Shown here in pieces: positions 32,218 through 64,000 of a stretch of DNA of 64,000 nt. Position 1 is the stretch's first letter. Every line of letters begins with the position of its first letter. The position numbers and the translations under genes are program-made. Below the pieces are notes generated by a model, which was given only the letters and a program-made list of their open reading frames with translations, did not search any database and was not told the origin of the DNA. This stretch comes from Haloplanus salinus. Its GTDB lineage: Archaea > Halobacteriota > Halobacteria > Halobacteriales > Haloferacaceae. Location of the stretch: contig NZ_QPHM01000001.1 in NCBI RefSeq assembly GCF_003336245.1, positions 2,670,113 through 2,734,112 of the forward strand. The letters are read 5' to 3'.

Positions 32218-32961
32218 TCACTGATACATGCCCAGCGGTCGCGCCTGCGAACTCGTCTCCTCGGCGTTCCGCATCTGTTCGGCGAGGCGTCGCTTCGCCT
32301 GCCGAATCTCCGCCGCGTGTTCGGTGAGTTCGCCGACCGGTATCTCGACGTCGAGCAACGGTCCGATGCCGGCGTCGAGGAGCCGTGCCGCCGCCTCCGG
32401 GTCCGGGAACTGCGGCGTCGCCTCGACGATCAGGCAGATGGCGTGCTCGCCGGTGCGCACCGCGTGGCTCAGCAGCGCCCCAGTCGGTCCCGATACCAAC
32501 CCCGACTCCGTCGGGGGTTGGACCTCGACGGCGTCGAGTTCGTCGCTCGCCCCGCCCGTACCGACGCCGTACAGCGCCGGCGGCTCCGCGTCCTCGCGCT
32601 CCCGTCCGATCCCGCTGAGGTAGATGGGCGTCACCTCGCTCCCGGCCGCCCACTCCCCCAGACACTCGGCGAACTCGAGCGCCGCCACCGGCGACACGGG
32701 CACGTCACTCCGGAGGGCCAGCAGGTCGCGGCTCGGGTCGGCGTACAGCCGAACCGGCGACGACAGGTCGTGCTCGCCGCCCGCGTACGTCGCCACCGGC
32801 GGTAGTCCCTCGCAGTGGACGTTGGCGTAGTGGGCCATCCCGAACGTCTCCGCGAGGTGGTCGGTCGCGAGTTTCCCCACGAGGCCCACGCCCGGCAGGC
32901 CCTCGATCAGCGTCGGTTCGTCGAGCGACACGTCGCTCCGGAGGACGTCGATGCGACTCAT
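32218..32961 (-). CDS. PAC2 family protein (possible proteasome assembly chaperone)
   Basis: The 247-residue protein has the PAC2 signature '[20 protein letters not shown]' near the start, then '[17 protein letters not shown]', '[13 protein letters not shown]' and 'ALYGVGTGG'. The archaeal family (PbaB/COG2047-like) is thought to act in proteasome assembly or as an ATP-independent chaperone. A helical C-terminus with '[17 protein letters not shown]' follows. It lies 45 nt downstream of grpE, next to chaperone genes. Confidence 0.82.
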
Positions 32962-33066
32962 AGTCGTGGTTCGGCCGGCACGGGTGTAAAGGCTCACACC
33001 CCGTGCGGACCGGGCGCGCGCGCGCCGCTCCCAAAGGCACAAATCCACCCACGCGTTACGCGAAGC

Positions 33067-34056
33067 ATGGTTACGTTCCTCGCTGGCGGGACGGGAACGC
33101 CGAAGCTCCTCGACGGTGTCGACGCCACGTTCGACCCGACCGAGATCACCGTCGTCGCCAACACCGGCGACGACGTGGCACTCGGCGGCCACCTCGTCTG
33201 TCCCGACCTCGACACCGTCCTCTTTTCGGGCGGTGGCGTCCTCGACCGCAAGACGTGGTGGGGGATCGACGGTGATACGACCGCCACCCACGACGAACTC
33301 GCGCGACTCGCCGACGCCGCCGGCTTCGACGCCGGCCCGCGGTATCTCTCCCCGGACCGACAGACTGCGGGCCGACGCATCGCCCGCTGGCGTCGCTTCT
33401 CCGGCGTCGCGGAGTTCATGGAGATCGGCGACCGCGACCGAGCCGTCCACGTCACGCGAACGAGCCTCCTCGACGAGGGGCTGACGCTGACCGAGGTAAC
33501 CCGCACCCTCGCCGACGCCTTCGGCCTCGACTACACCCTCCTCCCGATGAGCGACGACCCCGTGGCCACCATCGTCCACACCGACGCGGGCGCGATGCAC
33601 TTCCAGGAGTACTGGGTGGCCCGCCGTGCCGACCCGGCCGTCGAGGACGTGGAGTTCCGCGGCTCGGGAGCCGCCGAGCCGACGCCGGCCGTCCGCGACG
33701 CCCTCGACGCTCCGGTCGTGATCGGTCCGTCCAACCCGGTGACGAGCGTCGGCCCCATCCGCGCGCTCCCCGGCGTCGACGACGCCCTCGCCGAGACGAC
33801 CGTCGTCGCCGTCTCCCCGTTCGTCGAGGACGAGGCTTTCTCCGGCCCCGCCGCCGCGCTCATGCGCGGCGTCGGTCTCGACCCCTCGACCGCCGGCGTC
33901 GCCGACGCCTACCCTTTCGTCGACGCGTTCGTCCTCGACTCCGACGACGGTACCGACCTCGACCGTCCGGTCGTCCGCACCGAGACGCTGATCGACGGCC
34001 CCGACGACGCTCGTCGGGTCGTCCGCGCCGTCGCGGACGCCTTCGAGGTGGCCTGA
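33067..34056 (+). CDS. cofD: 2-phospho-L-lactate transferase (coenzyme F420 synthesis)
   Basis: The 329-residue CofD joins a lactyl or phosphoenolpyruvyl phospho-nucleotide to the deazaflavin Fo to form F420-0. It opens with '[19 protein letters not shown]', then '[20 protein letters not shown]' and '[16 protein letters not shown]'. The later '[19 protein letters not shown]' and '[20 protein letters not shown]' are family hallmarks. It heads a four-gene operon: its TGA shares a base with the next ATG (TGATG). Confidence 0.95.
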
Positions 34057-34817
34057 TGCTCGCGCTCGCCAGCCTCAGCGGCGCCGCCGACGCCGACTGG
34101 GCGCGGGCCGGCGCCCCCTACGCCGACCTCGCCGTCCTCGGCGGCATCGCCATCGATTCGGCGTCGCGGGACGCCGCCCGCGAACTCGTCGCCCGCGGGC
34201 GCGAGGAGTTCCTCCCTGACGACCCGCTCGCCTTCGTCGACGCCCAACTCGCCGCCCTCGGCGGCGCGCCGATCCGTGCCGGGATGAACGTCCGGAGCGC
34301 GACGGTCGACCCGATCCGTGAGGCCGCCGCGATCTGTGCCGATCACGACGCAGTTCTGGAGATCAACGCCCACTGTCGGCAGGGCGAACTGTGCGCCGTC
34401 GGCTGTGGCGAGACGCTGCTCCGCGACCGGGACCGACTCGCCACCTACGTCGCCGCCGCCGCTGACGCCGGCGCGACGGTGAGCGTGAAGATGCGTGCCG
34501 AAGTCGACGGGGTGGACCCGTCCGCCACCGCGCGTGCCGTCGCCGACGCGGGTGCGGACGTGATTCACGTCGACGCGATGGACTCCGAGCCCCTGATCGC
34601 CGACGTGGCGGCCGCGGCCGACGCCTTCGTCCTCGCCAACAACGGCGTCCGCGACCGGGCCACGGCCTGGGAGTACCTCGCTTACGGCGCCGACGGCGTC
34701 AGCGTCGGCCGCCCGAGCGACGACCCGACGGTCCTCGAACGGGTCGCCCGCGCGGTGACGGACTGGCGGGGCCACGAGCACCGTGACGCCGACTCCGACG
34801 GGGAGGTGCCGGGATGA
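34056..34817 (+). CDS. dihydrouridine-synthase-like TIM-barrel protein
   Basis: The 253-residue protein looks like a small Dus/dihydropyrimidine dehydrogenase-type FMN barrel. Segments include 'PIRAGMNVRSATVDP', 'LEINAHCRQGELCAVGCGE', 'VSVKMRAEVDGVDP', 'ADVIHVDAMDSE', 'ANNGVRDRAT' and 'GADGVSVGRPSDDP', the last forming the phosphate-binding end of the barrel. It is shorter than true tRNA Dus enzymes and lacks their RNA-binding domain. Its place between cofD and a CitG-like gene suggests a cofactor-related role. Confidence 0.75.
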   Translation: MLALASLSGAADADWARAGAPYADLAVLGGIAIDSASRDAARELVARGREEFLPDDPLAFVDAQLAALGGAPIRAGMNVRSATVDPIREAAAICADHDAVLEINAHCRQGELCAVGCGETLLRDRDRLATYVAAAADAGATVSVKMRAEVDGVDPSATARAVADAGADVIHVDAMDSEPLIADVAAAADAFVLANNGVRDRATAWEYLAYGADGVSVGRPSDDPTVLERVARAVTDWRGHEHRDADSDGEVPG

Positions 34818-35692
34818 GTGGGGAGGAGCCGCGCGCCCCGCGCCCCCACATGTCGCCCGTCGACCACGCCGCACTCGCGCTCACGCTGGAGGTGGCGAGT
34901 ACGCCCAAACCCGGGAACGTGGACCGTCATCGCGACCACGAGGACCTGCGGTTCGAACACTTCCTGGCCGGCGCGGTGGGGGCACGCTCGGGGTTGGAAC
35001 TGGCCGGGACCGTCGGCGACGACCCACCCTCGCTCGGCGACGCCTTCGAACGCGCGGTTCGGGGCATGAGCCAGCAGTCGGGCGGCAACACGCAGTTCGG
35101 CTGTCTGCTCCTGCTCGTCCCCCTCGTCCGCGCCGCGGCGACGGACCGCCTCTCGCCCGACGGGCTCCGGGGGACCACCGCCGCGACGACCGTCGACGAC
35201 GCCGCCGGCTTCTACCGCGCGTTCGAACACGTCGACGTGGCGGTCGACGACCCTCCGGCCGACGCCCCCGACCTGGACGTGCGCCGCGGTGCCGACGCGG
35301 TGCCGACGCTCCGCGACCGTGGCCTCACGCTCGCTGACGTGATGGACCTGAGCGCGGACCGCGACGGCAACGCCGCCGAGTGGTCGAGCGGCTTCGAACG
35401 GGTGTTCGACGCCGCGGAGGGGGTGCTCGACGACGACGGCCCGCTCACCGACCGTCTCGCGCGCGCCTTCCTCGACCTCCTCGCCGAGCGCCCCGACACG
35501 CTCGTCGCCGTCGAACACGGGCGCGAACGGGCCGCGGCCGTGAGCCGCGAGGCCGCCGCAGTGTGCGGTGATCTCGATGCCGCCGAGGACCTGGCCGACC
35601 GCTTCCTCGACGAGGGGATCAACCCCGGAACGACCGCGGACCTCACCGCCGCCGCCGCGTTCGTCGCCCTCGAACGGGGGGTGTCGCTGTGA
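34814..35692 (+). CDS. triphosphoribosyl-dephospho-CoA synthase-like protein (CitG/MdcB family)
   Basis: The 292-residue protein carries the CitG family motifs 'STPKPGNVDRHRDHEDLRFE', 'GGNTQFGCLLLLVPLV' and 'EGINPGTTADLTAAAAFVAL'. Bacterial CitG builds a prosthetic group for citrate or malonate decarboxylase, but no such decarboxylase is present here, and archaeal members occur beside cofactor genes. It probably performs a related nucleotidyl or ribosyl transfer. Its ATG overlaps the upstream gene by 4 nt and its stop overlaps the next. Confidence 0.8.
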   Translation: MSGEEPRAPRPHMSPVDHAALALTLEVASTPKPGNVDRHRDHEDLRFEHFLAGAVGARSGLELAGTVGDDPPSLGDAFERAVRGMSQQSGGNTQFGCLLLLVPLVRAAATDRLSPDGLRGTTAATTVDDAAGFYRAFEHVDVAVDDPPADAPDLDVRRGADAVPTLRDRGLTLADVMDLSADRDGNAAEWSSGFERVFDAAEGVLDDDGPLTDRLARAFLDLLAERPDTLVAVEHGRERAAAVSREAAAVCGDLDAAEDLADRFLDEGINPGTTADLTAAAAFVALERGVSL

Positions 35693-36291
35693 GCGACTCG
35701 GGGTGGCCCGTCTCCCTCCGCGGCGTCACCGAGTCGGTCGTCGCGACGCTCGGCCCGAACGACCGCTGGAATCAGGCGGCGCTCGGCCTCCACGCCCCCG
35801 ACGACGCGGGCGATCCCGTGACCGCGGTGACGTGGGGAAAGACCCGGACCCGCGGCAACTTCGAGCGCCGCGGAGGCGGCGTGATACAGTTCACGACCGA
35901 CCCCCGCGAGTTCGTCGACGCGGCCCTCGACGTGACCGAGACGGCGGAGCCGGTCCGGGACGGCGCCGCCGCGTGGGTCGAGGTGGACGCCCGCCGGATC
36001 GAGGACGGCGAGGACGAGGGGACCGAGTGGGTGCGTTGGGCGCTCACCCCGCAGTCCGCAACCGTCCGCGACCGGCCCGTCCCGGCGATCAACCGCGGGT
36101 TCTACGCCGTCGTCGACGCGACGGTGGCCGCGTCGCGACTGGACGTGCCCGCCTTCGACACCGAGACGCTGCTCGACCGCCTCGACTACTTCGCGGAGAC
36201 GGTCGAGCGCTGTGGCGGGCCGGCGGAGCGCGAGGCGTTCGCGCGGGTCGACGACCTGACTGGGTGGCGCGAACGGAACGAATCGCTTTAG
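35689..36291 (+). CDS. DUF447 family protein
   Basis: The 200-residue protein matches DUF447, a split-barrel flavin-reductase-like family: 'ESVVATLGPNDRWNQAALGL', 'TRGNFERRGGGVIQFTTDPR' and 'PAINRGFYAVVDATVAASRL'. In methylotrophs and methanogens relatives occur with tetrahydromethanopterin genes, but their reaction is not settled. The GTG start overlaps the CitG-like gene by 4 nt. The last residues 'GWRERNESL' end just before the rps17e promoter. Confidence 0.82.
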   Translation: MSDSGWPVSLRGVTESVVATLGPNDRWNQAALGLHAPDDAGDPVTAVTWGKTRTRGNFERRGGGVIQFTTDPREFVDAALDVTETAEPVRDGAAAWVEVDARRIEDGEDEGTEWVRWALTPQSATVRDRPVPAINRGFYAVVDATVAASRLDVPAFDTETLLDRLDYFAETVERCGGPAEREAFARVDDLTGWRERNESL

Positions 36292-36316: not shown

Positions 36317-36511
36317 ATGGCCATCAAACCCAAATACGTCAAACAGCTCGGAGGCATCCTCCTGGAGCGGTATCCGGAGGCGTTCAACACCGACTTCGAG
36401 ACCAACAAGGACAGCGTCACGAAGCTGACGAACGTGGAGTCGAAGGGCGTCCGCAACCGCATCGCGGGCTACATCACGCGCAAGAAATCGAGCGCGGCGG
36501 CCAACGCCTGA
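36317..36511 (+). CDS. rps17e: 30S ribosomal protein S17e
   Basis: The 64-residue protein begins 'MAIKPKYVKQLGGILLERYP' and contains 'DSVTKLTNVESKGVRNRIAG', matching archaeal/eukaryotic S17e. It binds the head of the small ribosomal subunit. Length matches other archaeal S17e. It follows DUF447 by 25 nt and could be read from the same transcript. Confidence 0.95.
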   Translation: MAIKPKYVKQLGGILLERYPEAFNTDFETNKDSVTKLTNVESKGVRNRIAGYITRKKSSAAANA

Positions 36512-59898: not shown

Positions 59899-60018
59899 CT
59901 ACAGCGGGGAGAACCGGTGTACCTCTCGCGCGTGTCGAAGAAGTTCCTCCGTCGACTCGAACGTCTCTCCACATCCGCACCGGTGCGAAGCTGTCGTCGA
60001 CGGCTGCTGTGTCGACAT
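59899..60018 (-). CDS. C2H2-type zinc-finger micro-protein (39 aa)
   Basis: The 39-residue protein begins 'MSTQQPSTTASHRCGCGETF' and continues 'ESTEELLRHAREVHRFSPL'. Cys14 and Cys16 with His30 and His35 give a C2H2-like zinc site with a short CxC knuckle, and a helix carries both His. It could bind DNA or RNA. It lies between the DUF5785-like gene and the folA remnant. Confidence 0.72.
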   Translation of the reverse strand: MSTQQPSTTASHRCGCGETFESTEELLRHAREVHRFSPL

Positions 60019-60049
60019 ACGCGTGGTTTGAACACCCATCTATATGTAA

Positions 60050-60442
60050 TCATCGTTCAGGCTGTTCGTGAGCATTGGCCAAACGGGGAGCGTTGTCACG
60101 GGGCGTGGCGACGGCGCCCTCCTCCCGTCGCTCCCATCGCTCCAGCGTGAACTCGTCGAACGCCGTTCGTGCCCGCAGCGTCCACGCGTCGCGATCCCAG
60201 TCCGGAACGGTCGCATCGCCGCCGTATCGCCCGGGAATTCGACTGAGCACCATCCGCGTCACGCGGGGCTGGAACCCCTCGTAGATGGCGGCGCCGCCGA
60301 GGACGAACGCCCGGTCCGCATCCCGCGCGCCGAGGGCGTCGAGCGCCGCGTCGACGCCGGTGACGTACGTCGTCGTGTCGAGCGACCCACCCCGCCCGAT
60401 CACCCCGTCGTCCGCGACGGCGGCCACCGAGACGAGTTCCGT
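60050..60442 (-). pseudogene. folA: dihydrofolate reductase remnant
   Basis: The frame reads 'ELVSVAAVADDGVIGRGGS', the start of DHFR, then jumps directly to 'YVTGVDAALDALGARDADR' and 'AFVLGGAAIYEGFQPRVTRM', the C-terminal half. The segment with the catalytic Asp and the NADPH-binding GRxT motif is missing. The codon where ATG is expected (60440-60442) is ACG; the first usable start is GTG at 60427. An Arg/Pro-rich tail follows 'FTLERWER'. The gene is almost certainly inactive. Confidence 0.72.
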
Positions 60443-60554
60443 ATCGGGCCGTTCGGTCGCGGCAGCATAACGGCTGCCGTCCGGGGGGTGTAGACGGGTG
60501 CCCGTCGAGGGCAGTCGGTCGGACTGGTCCCCGACGACGGGACGCGTGATCCGG

Positions 60555-60725
60555 ATCCCAGCGGCCGCTCTTCGTTCGCCAGCGCTCGTGAAAATCGGTG
60601 GGACTGGGATTCGAACCCGATGGCGAGACGCTCGCTACGCTCGCGACTCGCGTGGTTCGAATCCCAGCGGCCGCTCTCCGCTCACTAGCGTTCGCGGAGA
60701 AGCGGTGGGACTGGGATTCGAACCC
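60555..60725. repeat. two-copy repeat carrying the 3' end of tRNA-Ser (att-like scar)
   Basis: The last 23 nt of tRNA-Ser, 'cggtgggactgggattcga' plus 'accc', occur at 60703-60725 (in the gene) and again at 60596-60618. The preceding 'atcccagcggccgctct' also recurs (60555 and 60661), so a unit of about 106 nt is duplicated with divergence. Such a tRNA 3' end duplication is the classical mark of integration by a tyrosine recombinase. Confidence 0.7.
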
Positions 60726-60786
60726 AGGAAGCCGTGAGGCTACCTGCTTTCAAGGCAGGCGCAATAGGCCGCTCTGCCATCCCACC
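60703..60786 (-). tRNA. tRNA-Ser (anticodon TGA)
   Basis: On the minus strand the acceptor stem pairs GGTGGGA with TCCCACC, followed by discriminator G. The anticodon arm CCTGC 'CTTGAAA' GCAGG holds anticodon TGA, and a long variable arm ('TAGCCTCACGGCTTC') makes it type II, as required for serine. The T arm is CTGGG 'TTCGAAT' CCCAG. Length 84 nt. Confidence 0.92.
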
Positions 60787-60998
60787 ACAGCCTACGGGTC
60801 AGTGAGTCGGCAACTAAGGACTGTCGATTCACGCCCACAGGCCCGCAAAAGCCCGATTTCGAAATCCGCCAGGGGCGCCGAGCCGGGCTAACACTGCGGT
60901 TACGGAACATCGAGCCCAACGGTGACCAATCTAATCCAACCTCGATTGACCGACCGCATCGTCCGCCGATCACCGCCGGCAGCCAGCCCCATCTCAGC

Positions 60999-61523
60999 AT
61001 GACCACGCGCGCCTTCGACCGACAGAAAACACCCGAGGCGGATCGTTACGACGGGATCATCCTCGTGCCAGCGCCCACGCGCCAGCGCCTCAACGAGAAA
61101 CAGCGCGTCAACTACCGCGACCACCGACGGCGCTTCGTCAGGTGGCTCCTGGCCTTCGGCAAAGACCCCGATACCGCCGAGGGTTACGCACGAGATGTCG
61201 TTGAGCGGCGTGCACACGACACTGAGGCCTTCTATCGCTGGGTGTGGGACCATCGGGCCGACGGGTACACGACCGTCATCACGACCGATCAGGCCGACGA
61301 GCTGGTCGAAGAATACGCCGACGCCGAGCACCGTCGAGAGAGACGCGAAATTGAGAACAGGGTACTGGCCGAGACTGTCTGGCAAGTGCCGGAAAATCAG
61401 GGGGATCACGAGGGCGATTTCGTATCGAAGCACTACGAGATAGATAGGATTCGACAGAAACTGCCAGACGATGCTATCGAAGCTAATCGACTACTGAAAA
61501 AACACCGTACCGAAGACCGGTGA
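60999..61523 (+). CDS. truncated tyrosine recombinase (integrase) N-terminal fragment
   Basis: The 174-residue product has the N-terminal SAM-like core-binding domain of haloarchaeal phage integrases: 'LNEKQRVNYRDHRRRFVRWL', 'DPDTAEGYARDVVERRAHDT', 'AFYRWVWDHRADGYTTVITT'. The catalytic domain (R-HxxR-Y) is absent; the last 60 residues are unrelated and charged. It lies about 210 nt from tRNA-Ser, a usual integration target. It might be inactive or bind DNA only. Confidence 0.7.
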   Translation: MTTRAFDRQKTPEADRYDGIILVPAPTRQRLNEKQRVNYRDHRRRFVRWLLAFGKDPDTAEGYARDVVERRAHDTEAFYRWVWDHRADGYTTVITTDQADELVEEYADAEHRRERREIENRVLAETVWQVPENQGDHEGDFVSKHYEIDRIRQKLPDDAIEANRLLKKHRTEDR

Positions 61524-61710
61524 CCAGTAGCCAGTACTGCCCTATCAACACTCTCAACCGTTGGTAAGAACCGCGTGCTGAATACAGAGGGTAGGCCTTG
61601 TTTAGACGGTGAGGCTCGGTTAGTCTGAGAGGTGTTTCACTAGTATCGTCGTACTAATAACTCCAATGAAGTACCAAATCTACTAGGAAGTGAAGCGGGA
61701 CGGATTGGGT

Positions 61711-62597
61711 GTGCAAACCAAGACCTCCCGCTTCGCAGAGGCGGTCGTATCGCTCTCGAAAAAACCGTCGCTGGCGAGCCAGCTCCGGCATACCAGCCCG
61801 GGAAAGAGGGGTATGCCGACTGGGTGATTCTCGCCGTTCAGGGCTTCAAAGAGTATCTCAACCACGATTACCGGAAGCTGATGGATGTTCTGCGAGAGAT
61901 GCCGAGAGTCGCGGAATCGCTCGGTTTGACGGTTGAGACACTCCCTCACTTCTCGACCGTGTGTGCGCGGAAGCAAGTGATTCCGATGAAGCGGTGACGG
62001 GCGATCCTCGACGCGTCGGTCGGCCTGTACGAACTCGGAGATGTCCAAGCAATCGACGCAACCGGCGTGGATCGTGTCCAAGCGAGTCAGCACTACGCGA
62101 AACGGACGGATTACACGTTCGAGGCGGTGAAGACCACGCTGCCCGTCGATTGTGAAACGAGTGCGATTCTAGATATACACTGTTCGATGAAACAACTGCA
62201 CGATACCCAGGTCGGTTGGCAGGTGTTGGTGCGGAATCTAAACGATTCGACGGCTGTGGCGGTTCATAAAGGATATGACTGGGAAGCACTTCGGACGAGG
62301 TTGCGTGCTGAAAGTATCACACTGCTGATTCCGCAACGCGGTCCTGGTTTCCGAGGATGGGCGAGAAACTTACTCACCCAGGACCGGGCGTAAAACCGGC
62401 GTTCGAACGCTGAATCGGTGTTTTTCGATCTGCGGCAGCGATACGGTGAGACGCTGTGGGCGAGAACGTGGTTCGGTCAATTCCACGAACTTGTCATGAA
62501 ATCAGCGGTGCGAAATATCGAACGCGCAATCGAGGTGGCTGACCGCCGAACGCTGGCGTCTAGACAACGTCTAGAGGTTCTATTCAGCAGCGTCTGA
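61711..62597 (+). pseudogene. IS5-family transposase, inactivated
   Basis: The pieces read in order as an ISH-type IS5 transposase: 'TSRFAEAVVSLSKK', then after a frameshift near 61790-61812 'YADWVILAVQGFKEYLNHDY', 'AIDATGVDRVQASQHYAKRT' (first Asp of DDE), 'LDIHCSMKQLHDTQVGWQVL', 'SNAESVFFDLRQRYGETLWA' and 'RTWFGQFHELVMKSAVRNIE'. In-frame stops occur at 61995-61997 and 62391-62393. No functional transposase can be made. Terminal inverted repeats were not recognised. Confidence 0.8.
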
Positions 62598-62696
62598 GTG
62601 AGCTACCCGGCTGTTCAGAACGGTATGCGAGATACAGGACACGAAGACAATTTCCGATGCTGCGGTTCAGATTGCAGAGTGCAGACAACAGCGGCG

Positions 62697-63074
62697 TCAA
62701 AGGATGCCACAGGACGGGTCGGAATCGGGCGTTGGGGCAGTGTCCACTCGGATGGTATCTTGGATTCGGATCCACAGGCCGTACGCCGTCCCCTGATACC
62801 TCAGATATGAACTGTCTATCGTCGAAAAACGCTCTGAGAACGAGTAGAGCGCGTCCGGTAGATTGGGGCAGGCGTGATAGAACTCTTCCTCGACAGCTGT
62901 TTTGGCTATCTGTTGCTCGGCCCCTGGGAGGTCGGCGTACGAGATTACCTCCGCGTCGTCTGTCGGCGACTGCTCGGCTGTATTGACGACGGCGTCGCGT
63001 GAGTTCCCTCCAATACATCCAGCCAGAGGTGCGACGGCAACCCCGGCAGCCGATAATAGTGCGCGACGGTTCAC
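62697..63074 (-). CDS. predicted lipoprotein (125 aa)
   Basis: The 125-residue protein starts from GTG with 'MNRRALLSAAGVAVAPLAGC', a short signal with a lipobox ending at Cys20 and a twin-Arg (RR) motif, so Tat export and lipid anchoring are likely. The mature part is small, with 'ADLPGAEQQIAKTAVEEEFY' and two further Cys. It lies between the transposase remnant and an unannotated stretch, so it may belong to the mobile zone. Function unknown. Confidence 0.65.
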   Translation of the reverse strand: MNRRALLSAAGVAVAPLAGCIGGNSRDAVVNTAEQSPTDDAEVISYADLPGAEQQIAKTAVEEEFYHACPNLPDALYSFSERFSTIDSSYLRYQGTAYGLWIRIQDTIRVDTAPTPDSDPSCGIL

Positions 63075-63558
63075 ACCAGCTATTCTTTCAGACGTTCACA
63101 AATGGCTTTCCGTGGCCGTATTATAGCGGCTGGTGGTGTGCTCAACGCTCACTGTGTAGCTTGCACAGCTATCGAACCATCTGTTTAAATTGATAGACGC
63201 CTCGGTGGTCGAAACGGAGGAACAGGCTCCGTTGAAATATTTGGAGAGTGACACGTTTGCCCCCCCCTGCGGTTAGCACGGACGGGTTGTTTCACGAGCG
63301 CCGGTTGAGTGAAACTGGTCCGCGAGACGGGGTCGGACGCGAACTGCGCGTCGCTCAGCCAGTGTCGCGCGATGAGGCTGGATGTCACGGGAGGTTCGCT
63401 CTGAGATGGTCAAGCGCTTCGATCACCGTTCGCGGTGTACAGGCGGTGAATCGGTCAAATACGCCGTCCTCGAACAGCTCGTCTCTCGCGAGTGGGATGG
63501 AGACGCCACCTCATGGCTATCCTAGAGACACATATGACCTCGCACCCCTCATCAGTAT
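63075..63558. other. 484-nt region with eroded coding fragments
   Basis: No intact gene is accepted. The plus strand has a coding-like run reading 'EMVKRFDHRSRCTGGESVKY' (about 63400-63460), ending at a stop near 63525. The minus strand near 63175-63240 reads 'RFDHRGVYQF', which may be a piece of an insertion sequence. Codon use is poorer than in core genes and AT content is higher. These look like remnants of mobile DNA. Confidence 0.4.
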
Positions 63559-64000
63559 ATGGAAGAGATCGAGGGAACCATCCTCACCGGGCGGTCGTTC
63601 GAGCCGGTCCACGGCCGGGTCGTCGTCGAGGACGGCCGCATCACGGCCGTCGAGGAGACGACCGGGCGCGACGGCGACCCGAACCGCATCGTGCTGCCGG
63701 CGTTCGTGAACGCACACACCCACGTCGGTGACTCGGTCGCCAAGGAAGCGGCTGTCGGGCTCGGCCTGAAAGAGGCGGTAGTGCCGCCGGACAGCCGGAA
63801 GCATCGGCGGCTGGCGGCAGCCGACCGCGAGACGCTGGTCGGTGAGATGCACCGTACGCTCCGTTTCATGCAGCGAACCGGAACCGCGGCGTTTCTCGAC
63901 TTCCGCGAGTTCGGCGTCGACGGCGCCCGGGCACTACGTGAGGCCGCCGAGGGACTCGATATCGAGGCGTTCGTGTTCGGTAGCGACGACCCGGCCGTCC
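63559..64000 (+). CDS. amidohydrolase family protein (partial, runs off the end)
   Basis: The frame is open to the last base and encodes at least 147 residues starting 'MEEIEGTILTGRSFEPVHGR'. 'VLPAFVNAHTHVGDSVAKEA' contains the HxH metal site of amidohydrolases, and 'LRFMQRTGTAAFLDFREFGV' follows as in cytosine deaminase/chlorohydrolase-like members. The C-terminal ligands lie outside the window, so the substrate is unknown. The ATG follows 'tcagtat' with no clear promoter spacing. Confidence 0.8.
   Translation, partial: MEEIEGTILTGRSFEPVHGRVVVEDGRITAVEETTGRDGDPNRIVLPAFVNAHTHVGDSVAKEAAVGLGLKEAVVPPDSRKHRRLAAADRETLVGEMHRTLRFMQRTGTAAFLDFREFGVDGARALREAAEGLDIEAFVFGSDDPAV

Follow-up and report, generated by a model that had tools for sequence, protein, structure and literature searches.

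Which pathway, or pathways, do four overlapping genes on the forward strand of the Haloplanus salinus genome (3.55 Mb) serve? The stretch analysed here, hereafter the window, comprises 64,000 nt of contig NZ_QPHM01000001.1 (positions 2,670,113 to 2,734,112), and the four genes encode CofD, the 2-phospho-L-lactate transferase of F420-0 synthesis (33067..34056), a 253-amino acid (aa) protein resembling dihydrouridine synthases (Dus-like, 34056..34817), a CitG-like putative ribosyl transferase (34814..35692) and a DUF447 protein (35689..36291). A preliminary description of this DNA had noted overlaps of 1-4 nt between these genes and had proposed that all four may share an uncharacterised step in the synthesis of F420 or a pterin-like cofactor. 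The overlaps are 1 nt for cofD/Dus-like (TGATG), 4 nt for Dus-like/CitG-like (ATGA) and 4 nt for CitG-like/DUF447 (GTGA), as described. The operon consists, however, of two modules, cofD-Dus and CitG-DUF447, that separate or are lost independently. In the explanation that we consider best, and to which we give an even chance, it joins an F420 module (cofD and the Dus-like gene) with a methanopterin-type side-chain module (the CitG-like gene and DUF447).

The family assignments of the CofD, CitG and DUF447 proteins are firm. The cofD product scored 372 bits against TIGR01819 (F420_cofD; equivalog cut-off 257.45) and was the single CofD match in the genome, which bears out the earlier identification of this gene as one of F420-0 synthesis. 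The CitG-like protein matched PF01874 with 210.6 bits (cut-off 27), and the DUF447 protein matched both PF04289 (62.6 bits, cut-off 24) and PF20766 (63.6 bits, cut-off 24.8). The assignment of the Dus-like protein is firm at the superfamily level: it exceeded the cut-off of PF01207 (31.6 against 20.4 bits) and is a clear relative of the MJ0144 family TIGR00736, whose cut-off of 218.7 bits it did not reach (133.1 bits). Its closest named relative among the best 80 of 404 loci was that of Haloplanus ruber, with 81% identity.

To map the neighbourhoods, the window proteins were compared by tblastn with the corresponding regions of a 30-genome set, consisting of Haloplanus salinus and 29 other haloarchaea, and distances were measured between alignment ends. 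All four genes occurred in the order of the window, with less than 300 nt between alignment ends, in 20 of the 30 genomes, and this four-gene array is not a chance arrangement. The pairs were conserved more widely than the array, cofD and Dus being adjacent in 28 of 30 genomes and CitG and DUF447 in all 27 genomes that have both. The CitG-DUF447 pair was located elsewhere in two genomes (G032, G152), lay 0.5-1.3 kb further on in three (G038, G133, G148) and was gone from another three that kept cofD-Dus (G008, G049, G104). Because fewer than 60 bases separate the Dus stop from the start of the ribosomal protein gene rps17e in G008 and G049, the absence of the pair there is not due to a broken contig. 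G104 has another gene between Dus and rps17e.

A second set of loci was found through the Dus alignment (the best 80 of 404) and was therefore selected for Dus; the loci are haloarchaeal by their titles. In all 80, cofD adjoined Dus. CitG followed Dus within 300 nt in 45 loci; another 11 had it within 2.5 kb, and in the remaining 24 it lay elsewhere or was missing from the locus. In four of the 80, CitG was close to Dus and no DUF447 pair was found. Two of the 24 separated loci are affected by contig ends, L139 being a short contig (4.7 kb) and L109 being cut just upstream. Because all 24 carry genus names that we take to belong to the Natrialbaceae, they represent few independent separation events. 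Conservation of the neighbourhood across haloarchaea, which the preliminary description had suggested mapping, holds for the ordered array in 20 of 30 genomes and breaks down where the modules part in 24 of 80 loci.

Several neighbourhoods weigh against a strict pairing of Dus with cofD. One haloarchaeon, G017 (L061), has cofD-CitG-DUF447 and no TIGR00736 match in its genome, and another, G116, has Dus-CitG-DUF447 and no cofD in the stretch read. In other Halobacteriota, which at the loci concerned (L062-L071) are probably mostly methanogens, a Dus-like gene stood beside CitG in 8 of 10 loci, in the order Dus-CitG-DUF447, and no CofD match occurred within the approximately 10-13 kb read at each; these loci were chosen around known CitG or Dus places and are not a random sample. 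G017 is a naturally occurring case in which a requirement of F420 for Dus could be examined. In two of the non-haloarchaeal loci (L064, L070), the Dus-CitG-DUF447 genes are divergent beside genes that by eye resemble those of F430 synthesis (Cfb).

The CitG-DUF447 pair follows a third gene, mptG, rather than cofD. In 156 genomes of the phylum, we found DUF447 in 150, CitG in 149 and MptG in 152. The haloarchaea G008, G049 and G104 lack each of them; in addition, CitG is missing in G068, G078, G088 and G151, DUF447 in G016, G093 and G151, and MptG in G081. All three families are missing together only in those three haloarchaea, which keep Dus and cofD and which are also the only ones without DUF447 among the 30 haloarchaea tested. 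Among 193 haloarchaea, CitG was present in 190 and MptG (TIGR00144, E<=0.001) in 189, in 187 of them over the curated cut-off; MptG was absent in the three CitG-less genomes and in G247, which has CitG and whose 70-contig assembly possibly contains a gap.

The co-loss of CitG and MptG has a chance probability of 3.4e-6 per genome and of 1.5e-3 at the genus level, where it comprises two lineages. Because mptG lies approximately 0.8 Mb from the operon in Haloplanus salinus, linkage does not account for it. A shared pathway of CitG, DUF447 and MptG is less than complete in its distribution outside the haloarchaea, where MptG occurs without CitG in G068, G078, G088 and G151 and without DUF447 in G016, G093 and G151, and where CitG and DUF447 occur without MptG in G081; these cases count against it. 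The co-occurrence is nevertheless strong, and the three proteins very probably act in a shared pathway, the chemistry of which is considered below.

These distributions bear on the view that all four proteins belong to one pathway, either that of F420 or that of a single pterin-like cofactor. The ordered array in 20 of 30 haloarchaea and the Dus-CitG neighbourhoods of other Halobacteriota would fit such a pathway; the 24 separated loci and the loss of CitG-DUF447-MptG from genomes in which cofD-Dus stay would not, and the control genome of Sulfolobus acidocaldarius contains DUF447, CitG and MptG with no CofD and no TIGR00736 match. We rejected a single pathway for all four genes because of the separation of the modules and regard it as improbable. 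Of the shared step that had originally been suggested, the role in cofactor synthesis and the link to methanopterin genes stood, and the joint step did not, since CitG and DUF447 track MptG and not CofD.

That CitG-like and DUF447 genes occur near methanopterin genes elsewhere had been stated previously and is confirmed by bacterial gene clusters. Using the Archaeoglobus fulgidus-type CitG of genome G102 as a query, which favours relatives of the archaeal type, we obtained matches on 16 plasmids, 15 bacterial and one from Natrinema; for the DUF447 protein of G102, the match to the A. fulgidus entry 2iml extends along all 189 residues. In the stretches fetched, all 15 bacterial matches were accompanied by mptG and mch, 14 by fae, 14 by DUF6513 and 13 by DUF447. 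Because the 15 records come from five genera (Rhizobium 6, Phyllobacterium 4, Paraburkholderia 3, Sinorhizobium 1, Azospirillum 1), they are not independent. CitG, DUF447 and DUF6513 also occurred together in four of four archaeal loci (L099-L102), with AfpA in three.

In the typical bacterial island, CitG lies between a RimK ligase, in the orf5 position, and fae, and DUF447 lies ahead of DUF6513, a flavoprotein, a kinase and MfnB. The published orders are mch-orf5-orf7-fae and orf19-orf20-afpA-orf21-orf22 (PMC3615186). Methylobacterium orf5 is not the CitG-like gene, Orf5 being the glutamate ligase MyfB (PMC8141765). In Phyllobacterium, models of dihydromethanopterin reductase are similar to the flavoprotein AfpA, and a model of the dihydropteroate synthase (DHPS)-like type is similar to DUF6513, both below the NCBIfam cut-offs. 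On plasmid NZ_CP104968.1 of Phyllobacterium sp. A18/5-2 (L199), the CitG-like gene of the methanopterin island is annotated as two overlapping pieces.

Once MptG has acted and the pterin has been coupled, the side chain of methanopterin, in its archaeal and bacterial forms, requires the reductive opening of an aryl riboside and the transfer of an alpha-ribosyl group, and the known reaction of CitG is the transfer of a ribosyl group from ATP to a hydroxyl. To our knowledge, no enzyme has been assigned to either the ring opening or the ribosyl transfer in this side chain. Because DUF447, a flavin mononucleotide (FMN) split barrel, and the CitG-like protein are two genes of the clusters without an assigned reaction, these two steps would fall to them by elimination. 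From the observed co-occurrence, co-loss, clusters, folds and motifs, we infer the following substrates and reactions. MptG would make an aryl C-riboside 5-phosphate, FMN-bound DUF447 would open the ribose reductively to a 1-deoxyribitol via a quinone-methide-type intermediate, and the CitG-like protein would attach alpha-ribose to the ribitol in the way that CitG acts on dephospho-CoA. We consider the specific reactions of DUF447 and the CitG-like protein evenly poised between right and wrong.

The flavin-type barrel attributed to DUF447 at the outset was supported by its structural model (predicted local distance difference test, pLDDT, 93.6), which matches the FMN-bound DUF447 structures 2ptf, 2iml and 2nr4, and the protein is a predicted FMN-binding split barrel. 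The motifs of the CitG-like protein (PKPGNVDR, NT.FG, INPGTTADL) contain residues partly common to E. coli CitG and Phyllobacterium. Of 39 columns conserved in archaea, E. coli CitG has 24 in common, among them PKPG, NT and PG..AD, and the motif residues persist from haloarchaea and other archaea to Phyllobacterium and E. coli CitG. Judging from this conservation, they may bind the ribosyl donor. Literature searches on methanopterin together with triphosphoribosyl returned nothing, and none of the papers found on DUF447 was linked to methanopterin by its title.

Membership of the Pfam CitG family and the motif residues common with E. coli CitG would also be expected if the CitG-like protein made triphosphoribosyl-dephospho-CoA for citrate lyase or malonate decarboxylase. 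The scores against the CitG and MdcB equivalogs TIGR03125 and TIGR03132 (23.2 and 27.4 bits) missed the cut-offs of 272.3 and 282.35 by about 250 bits. An acyl carrier protein (ACP) of the CitD/MdcC type (PF06857) was found in none of 44 genomes, with a positive E. coli control, in line with the initial observation of a CitG-family transferase that lacks a decarboxylase partner. The bacterial relatives, moreover, sit in methanopterin islands. We therefore rejected CitG proper on the missed cut-offs and the lack of the ACP partner, and its chance of being correct is negligible.

Whether haloarchaea attach a pterin, for example through FolP, to what the trio of CitG, DUF447 and MptG makes depends in part on the coupling enzyme. 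Because PF20123 proved insensitive, being found in 70 of 156 genomes and missing M. acetivorans, we used TIGR00284 to search for the methanopterin-type DHPS-like coupling enzyme (TIGR00284/DUF6513). All 12 of the other Halobacteriota tested exceeded the cut-off, whereas a score above 27 bits was reached in none of 32 haloarchaea, in which the best matches (10 of 32) reached at most 26.1 bits and lay mostly inside long open reading frames (ORFs). This absence counts against the explanation that we consider best, as does the divergence of haloarchaeal MptG, in which Asn replaces the equivalent of D19 in 17 of 17 sequences. The enzyme retains its GxGSGT phosphate loop and an Arg corresponding to R26 in 17 of 17 sequences each, and the Q after the loop in 16 of 17; in the same alignment, the MptG of Phyllobacterium has no R26-equivalent Arg. 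For the D19N variant of the Methanothermobacter thermautotrophicus enzyme, PMC6787355 reports some remaining activity and a threefold higher KM (Michaelis constant) for p-aminobenzoate. The four mptG neighbourhoods of haloarchaea inspected by eye, out of 16 fetched (L072, L073, L075, L082), showed no pathway partner. One haloarchaeon, G303, contains besides the haloarchaeal MptG a second, far more canonical one (G303:C1:131130-131960, L096; 9.7e-86), and the 19-kb stretch around it matched none of the remaining methanopterin genes from Phyllobacterium.

The mch gene was present in 193 of 193 haloarchaea, including the three trio-less genomes, so Mch is independent of the trio, and the idea that the trio supplies the cofactor of Mch was rejected. 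According to PMC8305020, haloarchaea use tetrahydrofolate, with which a folate-dependent Mch is consistent; the same paper states that haloarchaea have no methanopterin-specific enzymes and that the MptG-like HVO_2628 is not isofunctional. Haloarchaea are without the full methanopterin pathway, in agreement with that paper, yet three of its genes persist together.

Two other uses of the trio have to be weighed here. A repurposed methanopterin side chain, in which MptG, DUF447 and the CitG-like protein make a non-pterin aryl-ribitol compound, would account for the missing TIGR00284 enzyme, the altered MptG pocket and the retention of Mch where the trio is lost; FolP may, however, couple the arene, if the weak TIGR00284 matches are to be read as FolP. 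We regard such a compound as a genuine possibility, although a tentative one. The use of tetrahydrofolate by haloarchaea (PMC8305020) would allow the trio to serve folate synthesis itself. The three trio-less genomes keep Mch and give weak DHPS-type matches, and the bacterial clusters group the trio genes with methanopterin one-carbon (C1) genes; a folate role is thus very unlikely.

The AlphaFold model of the Dus-like protein (pLDDT 93.6) had its best matches, among those listed, in Dus, dihydropyrimidine dehydrogenase (DPD) and dihydroorotate dehydrogenase (DHODH) structures, with a Z-score of about 22 for Dus. It aligns only to residues 2-241 of DusC, a chain of 311-318 residues, which corresponds to the catalytic barrel, and the C-terminal RNA-binding helical domain is absent from the 253-aa protein; the early characterisation as an FMN barrel lacking an RNA-binding domain was therefore correct. 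C107, K145, R147 and H171, which we take to be the Dus catalytic residues, are invariant in 38 Dus-like sequences. The longer Dus-like proteins of other Halobacteriota (L062, L063:4759-5889, L064, L067, L070) have 376-384 aa, and their C-terminal part received no Pfam name in the two that were scanned.

In the F420 module as we picture it, CofD would join a phospho-acid to FO, and the Dus-like protein would reduce the enolpyruvyl double bond to give the lactyl group. Its substrate would be dehydro-F420-0 or, at an earlier stage, phosphoenolpyruvate (PEP). Bashiri 2019 (PMC6450877) expected an archaeal dehydro-F420-0 reductase, 'CofX', that had not been identified, and saw no convincing nitroreductase (NTR) candidate near cofE outside Lokiarchaeum; the Dus-like protein would be this CofX. 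Hasan 2022 (PMC8764529) found the archaeal CofC/CofD pairs tested highly specific for 2-phospholactate (2-PL), so that a CofX acting after CofD would be unneeded. FMN-dependent reduction of PEP to 2-PL by the Dus-like protein, which we put forward as a proposal, would fit both studies.

For the deletion data from Haloferax volcanii, we assume that COG0042 is the Dus group. HVO_2478 is listed under COG 0042 (PMC3017900), and cofD bears the neighbouring number HVO_2479 (PMC8305020). Deletion of HVO_2478 left growth normal in rich medium (0.0243 per h against 0.0227 for the wild type) and slowed it in defined medium (0.0075 against 0.0133 per h), according to PMC3017900. An F420 role of the Dus-like protein is weakened by several points besides the specificity of CofC/CofD. 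The identity of HVO_2478 with the Dus-like family rests on a COG number and a locus tag, its growth defect is unspecific, and HVO_2477 is listed under COG 2890, so that CitG may not follow Dus in H. volcanii. The Dus-like protein of L063, the only one scanned with NCBIfam, has a methanogenesis marker 9 domain and lies beside CitG-DUF447. We found no literature naming HVO_2480, HVO_2481 or HVO_2482 and none on methanogenesis markers together with a TIM barrel and F420.

An RNA dihydrouridine synthase, perhaps acting on rRNA, that merely shares a promoter with cofD would also have Dus as its closest fold and the invariant Cys, Lys, Arg and His, and HVO_2478 was deleted together with a group of genes of which many are RNA-modification genes (PMC3017900; the aim is deduced from the gene list). 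Such an enzyme fits poorly with the lack of an RNA-binding domain, with the absence of dihydrouridine (D) from H. volcanii tRNAs stated in PMC2584109, with the adjacency of cofD in 80 of 80 loci and with a deletion defect seen only in defined medium in the data of PMC3017900. We consider it unlikely. Involvement of the Dus-like protein in F420 synthesis is possible, falling somewhat short of even, and a specific reduction of the enolpyruvyl group is doubtful.

We conclude that the overlaps in haloarchaea have merged an F420 module with a module for the methanopterin side chain that is either a relic or repurposed. It would follow that archaea have a named candidate gene for the lactyl step of F420, and that two steps of the methanopterin side chain, ring opening and ribosyl transfer, have named candidates as well. 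The more far-reaching combination, in which MptG, DUF447 and CitG still furnish nearly all haloarchaea with an aryl-ribitol-riboside cofactor of the methanopterin type and the Dus-like protein is CofX (acting on dehydro-F420-0 or converting PEP to 2-phospholactate), strikes us as rather unlikely. If true, a methanopterin-type cofactor in haloarchaea would contradict the folate-only view, and the findings question the statement of PMC8305020 that haloarchaea have no methanopterin-specific enzymes. Because the control genome of Haloferax volcanii gave matches to all five families (CofD, TIGR00736, CitG, DUF447 and MptG), these proposals are testable in a model organism.

The operon is flanked downstream by rps17e (36317..36511, + strand; NF002242, 95 bits), which encodes ribosomal protein S17e, lies outside the pathway and served as a synteny anchor; it is the usual neighbour, and in 21 of 27 DUF447-bearing haloarchaea it follows DUF447 at a distance of up to 500 nt. 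Upstream lies a divergent gene of the PAC2 family (32218..32967, - strand; PF09754, 149 bits), which is not part of the finding. A truncated dihydrofolate-reductase-like ORF occurs at 60050-60427 (-), its match to PF00186 being confined to positions 73-143 of the 159 in the profile. GC content is lowest at the end of the window (60001-64000), at 0.62 and then 0.59 in the final two 2-kb steps.

Compared with known systems, the Dus-like protein shares the FMN-barrel fold and the Cys/Lys/Arg/His set with the tRNA dihydrouridine synthases DusB and DusC and differs from them in its linkage to cofD and in being without the RNA-recognition domain. The Dus-like proteins of other Halobacteriota share the order Dus-CitG-DUF447, whereas they are longer, are unaccompanied by a CofD match in the stretches that were fetched and, in L063, have a marker-9 domain. 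The F420 pathway of FbiA/FbiB and the CofX predicted by Bashiri 2019 resemble the cofD module in having a CofD member and in the reductase expected in archaea; FbiB, however, uses an NTR-fold domain, and the candidate here, a TIM barrel of the Dus type, is linked to cofD, in place of an NTR gene linked to cofE. With the triphosphoribosyl-dephospho-CoA synthases CitG and MdcB, the CitG-like protein has the Pfam family and the PKPG..DR, NT and PG..AD residues in common, but it is without an ACP partner and deviates from E. coli CitG at positions that include N35 and N270. The closest parallel to the second module is found in the 'archaeal-like' C1 islands of methylotrophs, where, mapped by gene order, the CitG-like gene corresponds to the orf7 position and DUF447 to the orf19 position, together with MptG; unlike these methanopterin islands, haloarchaea are without the DUF6513/TIGR00284 coupling enzyme.

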